DNA of 64,000 nt from Ruficoccus sp. ZRK36 (GTDB lineage Bacteria > Verrucomicrobiota > Verrucomicrobiia > Opitutales > Cerasicoccaceae): assembly GCF_019603315.1 (NCBI RefSeq), contig NZ_CP080649.1:2924176-2988175 (forward strand). The letters run 5' to 3'. The number at the start of each line of letters is the position of its first letter. Positions within the stretch are counted from its first letter, which is position 1. Below the pieces are notes generated by a model. That model worked only from the letters and a program-made list of their open reading frames with translations. It ran no database searches and was not told the origin of the DNA. Of the stretch, positions 16,409-19,773 are shown piece by piece. The translations under genes were made by a program, and so were the position numbers.

Positions 16409-17944
16409 TTATTCAGCGGCAGTCAGAGCTGCCCAGTCAACATCGTGCATGTCGCCACTCTTGAGGAACTGCTGATGCATGCCGTAGGCCAGCCCGAAGG
16501 TCTGGGGCGTGTAGCCGCTCTGGGCGTGCGTGCAGTAGTCCTGGAGGATTCCCTTGTAGGAGGGATGGACACACTTATCGATGATCTCCTCGGCGCGCAG
16601 CTTCGGGTTCTTGCAGCGCAGGTTGGCGTAGCCCTGCTCAGTGATGACCGCCTGCACAGAGTGCTCGGAGTGGTCGATGTGCGAGCACTGCGGGACGATG
16701 GCGCTGATCTTGCCACCCTTGGCCACGGACGGGCAGGTGAAGATCGAGAGGTACGCACTGCGGGTAAAGTCACCCGAGCCGCCGATCCCGTTCATCATGC
16801 TCTTACCGAGGATGTGGGTGCTATTGATGTTACCAAAGATGTCCACCTCGATCGCGGTGTTGATCGAGACGATACCGATGCGGCGGGCGACCTCCGGATG
16901 GTTGGAAATTTCCTGCGGGCGCAGAACCATGCGCTTACGGAACTCATCCAGGTTGTCGTAGATGAGCTGGAGCTTTTCATTACTGACGCTCAGTGAGGTG
17001 CCGCTGACGAAGTTGATCTTGCCCTCCAGCATCATGTCCACGACGGAGTCCTGAACGACTTCGCTGTACATGTCGAAAGCCGGAATGTCCGGGTGCTCAC
17101 CCAGTGCGCTCAGCACGGCGTTGGCGACATTACCCACGCCGGACTGAATCGGCAGGAAGGTCTTCGGGATGCGGCCCTCATGCATTTCCTTGGCCAGGAA
17201 CTCGGCTACGTTTTCGCCGATCTTCTTGGTGGTAGGATCGAGGTCCTTAAAGGGACGGGCTTCGTCCGGGATATTGGTACGGACGATACCGACGATCTTC
17301 TTCGGGTCCACCTTGACGGCTTCGGAGCCGATGCGGTCGCTGACCGAGTAGATCGGGATCTCGCGGCGAGCAGGCGGGTCGAGCGGCTCGTAGATGTCGT
17401 GGATACCGCGCAGGGCAGCCGGGTGAGCGCTGTTGAGCTCGATCAGGATCTTGTCGGCGTAGCGGCAGTAGGTCGGCGAAACACCCACCGAGGTGGTCAG
17501 GATGATCTCACCGTCGGCAGTCACATCACAGGCCTCGACGATAGCCCAGTCGACCTTACCGAGGAAGCCGTAGCGCACGTACTGCGGTACGACCGACAAG
17601 TGCATGTCGAAGTAATTCGTCTCGTTCTTGTTAATGAGCGCGCGCAGGTCCGAGTCGGACTGATACGGCGTGCGCCAGGAGACAGCGTTAGCCTTGGCCA
17701 GCTCGCCATCGAGCGAGGCACCCGTCGAGGCACCCGTGAGCACACCTATCTGGAAGGGGCGACCGGCTTCATGCTCGGTGCGGGCCTTGGCGGCGATAGC
17801 GCGGGGGATGGCCTTGGCGGCGCCGGCGGGGGTGAATCCGCTGAAGCCGATGGTCTGGTTATGGTTTACCATCGCTGCTGCTTCTTCCGCGCTAAGCACG
17901 GGAAACGGCAGGCTGGACTTGGATTTATCGAGGGTTGCCTCCAT
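16409..17944 (-). CDS. acetyl-CoA hydrolase / succinyl-CoA:acetate CoA-transferase family
   Basis: A 511-residue cytoplasmic class I CoA-transferase. The sequence shows the family layout: NHNQTIGFSGFTPAGAAKAIPRAIA near the start, GVLTGASTGASLDGELAKA, EIILTTSVGVSPTYCRYADKILIELN, the catalytic glutamate E295 in DMYSEVVQDSVVDMM (equivalent to Glu294 of AarC) and the C-terminal FGNINSTHILGKSMMNGIGGSGDFTRSAYLSIF and HIDHSEHSVQAVITEQGYANLR blocks. It exchanges CoA between succinyl-CoA and acetate, or possibly propionate, or hydrolyses acetyl-CoA in related enzymes. It stands alone and may serve acetate metabolism or an alternative TCA step. Confidence 0.9.
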   Translation of the reverse strand: MEATLDKSKSSLPFPVLSAEEAAAMVNHNQTIGFSGFTPAGAAKAIPRAIAAKARTEHEAGRPFQIGVLTGASTGASLDGELAKANAVSWRTPYQSDSDLRALINKNETNYFDMHLSVVPQYVRYGFLGKVDWAIVEACDVTADGEIILTTSVGVSPTYCRYADKILIELNSAHPAALRGIHDIYEPLDPPARREIPIYSVSDRIGSEAVKVDPKKIVGIVRTNIPDEARPFKDLDPTTKKIGENVAEFLAKEMHEGRIPKTFLPIQSGVGNVANAVLSALGEHPDIPAFDMYSEVVQDSVVDMMLEGKINFVSGTSLSVSNEKLQLIYDNLDEFRKRMVLRPQEISNHPEVARRIGIVSINTAIEVDIFGNINSTHILGKSMMNGIGGSGDFTRSAYLSIFTCPSVAKGGKISAIVPQCSHIDHSEHSVQAVITEQGYANLRCKNPKLRAEEIIDKCVHPSYKGILQDYCTHAQSGYTPQTFGLAYGMHQQFLKSGDMHDVDWAALTAAE

Positions 17945-18232: not shown

Positions 18233-19279
18233 ATGAAGGTCATTTCGAGAAAGAAGCCCCACTACCCGATCAGTCGGGACTTCCGCTCGTACCTGCGTCA
18301 GTACAACCGGGAGTGCGAGCTGCCCGTCGAGTACAAGGACCTCATGCAGTTCCGCCAGGGCGTACCCCTTACGGATCGCAACGGCAAGGATACCCTCTGG
18401 GAAACCGTTTTCTACGAGCCGCTGGATTTCCGCCGGATCAATGAAGGGCTGATCCGCATCTACGCCATCCTCAAGGCCGCCGGTAACACGGGCGTGATGG
18501 AGCACCTCGTCATCGACCGCATCGACTTTTGCATCTTCGGGAACTCGTGCCCCTTCCGCATCCGCATCGTCAACCAGTACAATGACAACGCGGACTACTT
18601 TTACGTCAAAAAGGCTGACGCCTCCCGCATCTACGGGCTGGAGCTGGAGGAGCTGCTCTCCCCCAACTCGATCAACTTCCTCGTCCACAATGAGACCCTG
18701 ATCGAGCAGCACATCATCGGCATCCCCGGCGACATTTTTATCGACGACTACTTCAAGCGCCCCTCGCTGAACAAGGTCCGCGTCGCCAAGGAATTCATCC
18801 GCTTCAACGAGCGCTGCTTCGTCCGCCTGCTCGGGGATATGCGCGCGTACAACTATGTCGTGCGTGTCACGCCGGACTTCGAGGATGAGCAGTATCGCGT
18901 ACGCCCGATCGACTTTGACCAGCAGAGCTACGAAGGGCGGCGCACGATTTACCAGCCCCAGTTCTTTAAGGACAACCTCGCCGTGGTCGAGCTGTGCACC
19001 GGCCTGCTCAACTACGAGACCATGGTCCAGTACCAGAACGAGGAGCGCGCCCTCATCGCCCGGCGTGCCAACACCGCCCCCTACCGCCTGAACAACCTCA
19101 AGGTCTGCATGAGCGAGGACCACCTCTCCGAAGAGGAGAAAATCCACCAACTGCGAAAGGAGCTGGCCGATTATCACGGCAACAAGGACTTTTTACGCTG
19201 CGAAACCATGGGCGAAGTCGTATTTACAAACATTGAATATTGCTTGTCGTCCGCGGAGCAAATGGGTATTAGTCCATAA
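18233..19279 (+). CDS. unrecognised protein with kinase-like catalytic motifs
   Basis: A 348-residue soluble protein I cannot assign to a named family. Two spaced motifs resemble the core of protein-kinase-like/aminoglycoside-phosphotransferase folds: RLLGDMRAYNYVV (D202, N207, the D-x4-N spacing of the catalytic loop) and RPIDFDQQSYEG (D227-F228-D229, like the metal-binding DFG/DFD). A candidate ATP lysine lies at 126-127 (DYFYVKKAD). The order Lys, D-x4-N, DFD and the total length fit such a fold, but the glycine-rich loop is not obvious. It is followed after 59 bases by the PhaR-type regulator on the same strand, so the two may be linked. A phosphotransferase role is only an inference. Confidence 0.6.
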   Translation: MKVISRKKPHYPISRDFRSYLRQYNRECELPVEYKDLMQFRQGVPLTDRNGKDTLWETVFYEPLDFRRINEGLIRIYAILKAAGNTGVMEHLVIDRIDFCIFGNSCPFRIRIVNQYNDNADYFYVKKADASRIYGLELEELLSPNSINFLVHNETLIEQHIIGIPGDIFIDDYFKRPSLNKVRVAKEFIRFNERCFVRLLGDMRAYNYVVRVTPDFEDEQYRVRPIDFDQQSYEGRRTIYQPQFFKDNLAVVELCTGLLNYETMVQYQNEERALIARRANTAPYRLNNLKVCMSEDHLSEEEKIHQLRKELADYHGNKDFLRCETMGEVVFTNIEYCLSSAEQMGISP

Positions 19280-19338: not shown

Positions 19339-19773
19339 ATGCCAGTTACCGACATCGACACGATCCTGATTAGGCGCTACCCCAACCGCCGCTTCTACGA
19401 TACCTCACGAAGCGGCCACGTCACCCTCGAAGAAATCCGCGACATGGTAGCCGAAGGCTATACCATCCAGGTCGAGGACTCCAAGACCGGGGAAGACATC
19501 ACCACCAAGGTCCTGCTCCAGGTCATTATGGAATTCGAGTCCTCCAAGCTCGATATCCTGCCCCGACAGCTCCTCTGTGAAATGATCCGCATCCACGACC
19601 GCTTGGCCAGTGAGATGCTCGGCCAGTACTTCTCCACCACCTTCAGCTCATTCGAGGAGTTGCGTGAACGCTCGGGCGCCATCCAGCGCACCCCGGCCAC
19701 ACGTACCCCCGCGCGAGTGACGGCGACGGCCAGCGCTACCGCAGTTGCCGGCTCCCTCGCCCGTCAGCACTAG
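19339..19773 (+). CDS. phaR: PhaR-type polyhydroxyalkanoate accumulation regulator
   Basis: A 144-residue DNA-binding regulator. Residues 9-70 (ILIRRYPNRRFYDTSRSGHVTLEEIRDMVAEGYTIQVEDSKTGEDITTKVLLQVIMEFE) are the PHB/PHA accumulation regulator DNA-binding domain with its signature RYPNRRFYDT. The next segment (LPRQLLCEMIRIHDRLASEMLGQYFSTTFSSFEELRE) matches the associated PHB-accumulation regulatory domain. The tail is low-complexity Thr/Ala. In known systems PhaR binds PHA and represses phasin and its own gene. No PHA synthase or phasin is in this window, so it may control distant genes or another process. Confidence 0.88.
   Translation: MPVTDIDTILIRRYPNRRFYDTSRSGHVTLEEIRDMVAEGYTIQVEDSKTGEDITTKVLLQVIMEFESSKLDILPRQLLCEMIRIHDRLASEMLGQYFSTTFSSFEELRERSGAIQRTPATRTPARVTATASATAVAGSLARQH

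Follow-up and report, generated by a model that had tools for sequence, protein, structure and literature searches.

The gene at 18233-19279 of the window (the whole 64,000-nucleotide stretch of the Ruficoccus sp. ZRK36 genome that was analysed) belongs to a family that has no name and is shared by Bacteroidota and Verrucomicrobiota. On the basis of predicted structures we think it likely that its product is a kinase of the PI3K-type branch, made of one domain and probably cytoplasmic, with a soluble protein or metabolite as the most plausible substrate. A bacterial family that is widely kept and has no convincing match in the searched profile libraries appears to carry a PI3K-type fold with an intact catalytic set, and the evolutionary history of the PI3K/PIKK group may gain a bacterial branch with it.

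The gene and its invariant residues

The predicted gene was confirmed as an ORF of 348 amino acids with an ATG start, which is supported by the fact that the homologue alignments begin at residue 1. The genome of origin holds a single match to the protein, and codon comparison of the gene with those of three congeners gave dN/dS values of 0.057, 0.058 and 0.124; the ORF is real and evolves under purifying selection. The homologues that are 94% and 84% identical lie on contigs titled Verrucomicrobiota bacterium JB024 and Verrucomicrobiia bacterium. The features of the gene and of its downstream neighbour are the following.

18233..19279, forward strand: coding sequence of the PI3K-fold kinase-like protein, 348 amino acids, ATG start (ORF calls, homologue alignments)
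18356..18412, forward strand: predicted beta hairpin of the N lobe, residues 42-60, which by the order of elements in the model would take the place of the phosphate-binding loop
18608..18628, forward strand: K-x2-D-x2-R, residues 126-132, with the putative ATP-phosphate lysine K126 and with D129 and R132 (alignment, each in 76 of 76)
18647..18649, forward strand: E139, on the helix that follows K126, putative partner in a salt bridge (model; 76 of 76)
18704..18721, forward strand: residues 158-163 (E158, H160, G163), putative interlobe hinge (model; 76 of 76)
18833..18853, forward strand: G-D-M-[RH]-x2-N, residues 201-207, putative catalytic loop, with D202 as base and N207 as metal ligand (alignment)
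18908..18922, forward strand: [IM]DFDQ, residues 226-230, putative metal-binding motif at the DFG place, with D227 (alignment)
19339..19773, forward strand: PhaR-type regulator, not counted as part of the system (profile matches, neighbour comparison)

To describe conservation we used a set of 203 usable homologous proteins, reduced to 76 by dereplication at 80% identity, aligned, and numbered after the window protein. Residues K126, D129, R132, E139, E158, H160, G201, D202, M203, N207, D227, F228, D229 and Q230 were identical in all 76, as was G163, and position 204 held an arginine in 69 and a histidine in 7. The D-x4-N and DFD motifs on which the earlier note had based its kinase proposal are present at the residues that it gave, D202 and N207 being carried by RLLGDMRAYNYVV and D227 by RPIDFDQQ, and the conservation that it asked for at these three residues was found throughout the alignment. 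As to the two lysines that it had named, K126 is invariant while position 127 is a lysine in just 34 of the 76 homologues. All members therefore hold the protein-kinase-like catalytic set of K, D-x4-N and D (K126, D202, N207 and D227). Two cysteines, C100 (18530-18532) and C195 (18815-18817), were kept in 71 and 72 of the 76 and might have a redox or structural role.

By itself, the pair formed by D-x4-N and a following [ILVM]DF[DG] is not rare by chance, as it occurred in 38 of 15,200 composition-shuffled members and in 6 of 2,120 background frames, 3 of which were family members. A longer ordered pattern (K..[DE]..R, then GD.[RH]..N, then [ILVM]DF), composed after the family had been seen, was found in 76 of 76 members, in none of the 15,200 shuffles and in 3 of the 2,120 background frames, all three of them family members with IDFDQF. 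The class III PI3-kinase VPS34 (PIK3C3), which reads FKHGDDLRQD and GVGDRHLDN...HIDFG, shares with the window family the K-x2-D-x2-R and GD-x-H-x2-N spacings and the IDF, and these spacings, written as K-x2-[DE]-x2-R and GD-x-[HR]-x2-N, hold in 76 of 76 homologues. The DFG metal motif of PI3/PI4-kinases is replaced, the position reading D227-F228-D229 in all 76.

Predicted fold and likeness to PI3K-type kinases

No Pfam or NCBIfam model recognises the family convincingly, in agreement with the earlier note, which had known no family for the rest of this sequence. Searched with the window protein, Pfam and NCBIfam gave nothing at E 10 or better; a PHROG search, made with this protein only, gave one chance-level match (E 0.39). 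With the 76 members, Pfam returned 44 families of at most 2 members each; among the best 25 of these, the top match was DUF892 (E 5e-4, 2 members), the sole kinase-associated name was PIP49_N (FAM69 N-terminal region; 1 member, E 0.068), and PF00454 did not appear. The PF00454 profile was over its cut-off in none of 19 relatives' genomes. NCBIfam gave 20 scattered weak families of at most 3 members each, a defence search with PADLOC gave 7 families of one member apiece (best E 3.6e-4), and PDB sequences searched with family profiles yielded no kinase. HHalign against one VPS34 segment reached a probability of 0.12 and a non-significant score of 12.5, which at least 8 of 60 shuffled segments exceeded (best shuffle 23.4), although it set the catalytic loop and the IDF opposite their counterparts. 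Sequence comparison thus does not establish kinship with PI3K, and for this reason we name the group a PI3K-fold kinase-like family and keep it out of PF00454. Judged from titles and abstract openings, in a literature with preprints outside and few subscription papers, we recognised no description of the family, which is weak evidence.

AlphaFold2 modelled the window protein with pLDDT 86.9 and pTM 0.87 from a hand-chosen alignment of 35 sequences; residues 1-5 and 235-244 had pLDDT below 50, and the latter likely correspond to the activation segment. A Bacteroidota homologue of 43% identity was modelled with pLDDT 96.2 and pTM 0.92 from 76 sequences. Both models present a two-lobed kinase fold. 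Foldseek searches of the PDB with the window model placed VPS34 first (E 1.8e-5), with 45 matches reaching E 0.001; with the homologue model, 76 matches reached E 0.001, JAK2 pseudokinase chains taking ranks 1 and 2 (E 1.0e-4 and 1.1e-4) and VPS34 the third (E 1.2e-4). For both models the TM-scores among the matches listed were about 0.41 or lower. Foldseek alone does not single out PI3K, because the best matches among viral models were Ser/Thr protein kinases of giant viruses (E 4.2e-6), with a PI3-kinase at rank 36.

We then consider VIA-align 2, which re-ranks Foldseek's own candidates and is not an independent search. It placed VPS34 at the top for the window model (Z 12.6, rmsd 4.8, 274 aligned residues) and for the homologue model (Z 13.7, rmsd 4.6, 274 aligned), and the best 50 rows for each model were PI3K, PI4K or PIKK entries, recognised by their titles or, as with several VPS34 entries, from molecule names. 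These rows spanned residues 14-348 of the window model and 11-344 of the homologue model. On these re-ranked candidates, the two predicted models are consistent with the structure of a PI3K-type catalytic domain, at a structural identity to such relatives of about 11%. The kinase fold that the earlier note had proposed is supported by the predicted structure together with the conserved catalytic residues, and can be refined to the PI3K-type branch.

Almost the entire length of the protein is covered by the likeness to VPS34 and PI4KIIIbeta (Z up to 13.7 and 13.2, respectively), from which the window protein differs in being a bacterial single domain of 348 amino acids with DFD for DFG, about 11% identity and no detected profile similarity. 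The PIKK protein kinases (Tel1/ATM, mTOR, SMG1) belong to the same structural group in the match lists (Z up to 13.0), but they are domains of very large eukaryotic proteins, with chains of 960 to 2652 residues. A bacterial kinase, CtkA of Helicobacter pylori (3akj), was also among the Foldseek matches, at rank 24 for the window model (E 6.5e-4), although it ranked below VPS34 and was absent from the PDB sequence matches of the window protein and its family. According to a survey of the Legionella pan-kinome (PMC9758233), divergent bacterial kinase-like families are known by a conserved D/N/D and predicted structures, and the two families most widespread outside Legionella bear methyltransferase domains, one of them having R at the catalytic K. 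Going by these descriptions rather than by sequences, the window family is set apart by its single domain and its invariant K.

If the family works as other kinases do, ATP and a divalent metal would be bound where the two lobes meet; the phosphates would be held by K126 together with E139 or D129 as its acidic partner, D202 would act as the catalytic base, and N207 and D227 would be metal ligands. The phosphate would most likely go to a soluble protein or a small metabolite, and not to a phosphoinositide.

The same motifs leave room for a small-molecule kinase of the APH/choline-kinase type, in which the likeness to PI3K would reflect merely a common fold. GD-x-[RH]-x2-N with IDFD after it is similar to APH-type motifs, and the compact, one-domain build and the lack of a constant partner would suit such an enzyme. 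However, APH chains were absent from the best 50 VIA-align rows of either model and, like HipA chains, from the matches listed by Foldseek and VIA-align for both, and no APH family stood among the best 25 of the 44 Pfam families; these absences are compatible with an APH enzyme, and we regard the APH reading as rather unlikely.

Distribution and the bshA pair

The distribution search covered Verrucomicrobiota and Bacteroidota. Of 54 relatives (own genome counted) 33 had a family match, as had 82 of 387 Verrucomicrobiota genomes and 80 of 296 genomes of Bacteroidota (the phylum of a Hymenobacter genome), nearly always as one copy per positive genome. The named carriers, given for 80 of 154 loci, include Hymenobacter, Pontibacter, Rufibacter, Adhaeribacter and Microscilla. 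One of the 80 Bacteroidota genomes (G677) has a decayed family gene at C1:3158148-3158407 (L208), in two fragments with a stop inside each, and another genome (G519) has two copies (L194 and L195), of which L195 is highly divergent and on a long branch. On the tree of the 76 members, 3 changes of phylum label suffice, where shuffled labels require about 25 on average; the bootstrap of this tree was not fully settled. Kinase-positive relatives have a median genome size of 4.1 Mb (n=33), versus 1.5 Mb for the kinase-negative ones (n=21). Most of the small genomes in the order lack the gene, and where present it mostly has no conserved partner beside it. An association with mobile elements was dropped, as the plasmids and phages searched contained no family match. 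In viral contigs, a DNA pattern for the PI3K catalytic loop hit two loci, each with a long ORF over the site on the other strand that reads like an amidase/SH3 protein, and both hits were put down to chance.

Neighbour clustering and Pfam searches on the neighbours disclosed no neighbour conserved family-wide. Clustering was done first on 75 loci, in 11 of which the target ORF went uncalled, and then again, using another naive ORF caller, on 140 listed loci; both callers were crude. In the second round, adjacency in 3 lineage groups was seen for one cluster only, an ABC ATPase. Pfam on 121 of 146 nearest neighbours (25 near-duplicate, short or uncertain rows were removed by hand) found no recurring family, with at most 4 members each in the best 25 of 165 families.

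A more restricted association was found in Bacteroidota, where the bacillithiol-synthesis gene bshA lay directly upstream of the kinase gene and on the same strand in 11 of 48 loci (L182-L209 and L219-L238), a rate that is biased because the last 20 loci were chosen from genomes with scores similar to those of the first genomes that bore the pair. In these loci (L183, L187, L200, L202, L205, L221, L227, L228, L229, L230 and L232) the gaps from bshA to the nearest candidate kinase start ranged from -4 to 82 bp, and the four bshA products tested matched TIGR03999 at 539-581 bits (cut-off 273.7). The 11 paired genes, whose kinases are down to 55.6% identical, sit in one clade of 14 kinases (FastTree support 1.0, with many weak inner forks), and the pair occurred in no other locus examined, Verrucomicrobiota loci included. 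The invariant residues are concrete targets for mutation, and for this clade bshA, as a candidate operon partner, offers a first handle on function.

On the basis of this pair, the protein could be a kinase of low-molecular-weight thiol or redox metabolism, whose target would be a bacillithiol-type intermediate or a protein of that pathway, and which in Verrucomicrobiota would serve a related thiol system. The operon-like spacing in 11 of the 14 genes of the clade speaks for it, as does BshC: of 22 kinase-positive genomes tested in Bacteroidota, 11 of them bearing the pair and 11 not, all 22 had it, though this count has no kinase-negative Bacteroidota baseline; a control, Bacteroides ihuae, gave no BshC match. 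The conservation of C100 and C195 strengthens the lead only slightly. Against it, 3 of 387 Verrucomicrobiota genomes had a BshC match above the cut-off, none of them on the kinase-positive list (both sets of 387 were taken as identical from their matching handles), one kinase-positive genome (G327) showing a weak match below the cut-off. BshA was over its cut-off in 4 of 54 relatives, namely three kinase-positive (G022, G040 and G041) and one kinase-negative (G039), so that 30 of the 33 kinase-positive relatives are without it. An mBio paper of 2018 (PMC6282198) describes Verrucomicrobia as being without a documented or predicted low-molecular-weight thiol. Considering these results, we judge a role in thiol metabolism unlikely. 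Its broader form, in which an old bacterial PI3K-type lineage, present mostly as a free-standing gene, would take part in an undescribed step of thiol or redox signalling, linked to bacillithiol synthesis by bshA in a single clade and pointing to a thiol system yet to be described in Verrucomicrobiota, seems to us quite improbable.

Phosphoinositides and the PhaR neighbour

That the protein phosphorylates phosphoinositides or other lipids, like its nearest folds, is very improbable in our opinion. VPS34, PI4KIIIbeta and p110 are indeed its best structural relatives, but the PIKK protein kinase Tel1 came within 0.3 and 0.7 Z of the top rows (Z 12.3 and 13.0 for the window and homologue models, respectively). 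A phosphoinositide substrate is also made less likely by the scarcity of the inositol-phosphate synthase PF07994, which was found in only 2 of the 82 kinase-positive Verrucomicrobiota, even though inositol could be imported. With PF07994 in only 3 of all 387 Verrucomicrobiota genomes, de novo inositol lipids were rejected as a candidate.

In the window the kinase gene has a PhaR neighbour, as the earlier note had said: the gene that begins 59 bp downstream on the same strand matched PF07879 at 85.3 bits and TIGR01848 at 95.5 bits (under its cut-off of 109.45). The note was also right about the PHA synthase, since no PhaC_N (PF07167) was found in the whole genome at E 0.001. The same adjacency occurs in two congeners and thus in 3 of the 4 genus members (G000, the own genome, G001 and G002), whereas the fourth (G003) has the kinase gene without PhaR, and no other locus examined showed it. 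PF07879 was found in 4 of 54 relatives, these three and G036, whose kinase matches lie on contigs other than that of PhaR, against 33 of 54 for the family, and 29 of the 33 kinase-positive relatives had no PhaR, so that the co-occurrence proposed as a check did not appear. This gene distribution largely refutes the suggestion of a carbon-storage phosphotransferase linked to PhaR, which the close spacing might favour and the missing PhaC_N does not, and we give it hardly any credit; the PhaR neighbour looks incidental. On the other side of the kinase gene, and divergent from it, lies an acetyl-CoA hydrolase/transferase gene (16409-17944, reverse strand), which accompanies it in all 4 members of the genus that were compared.
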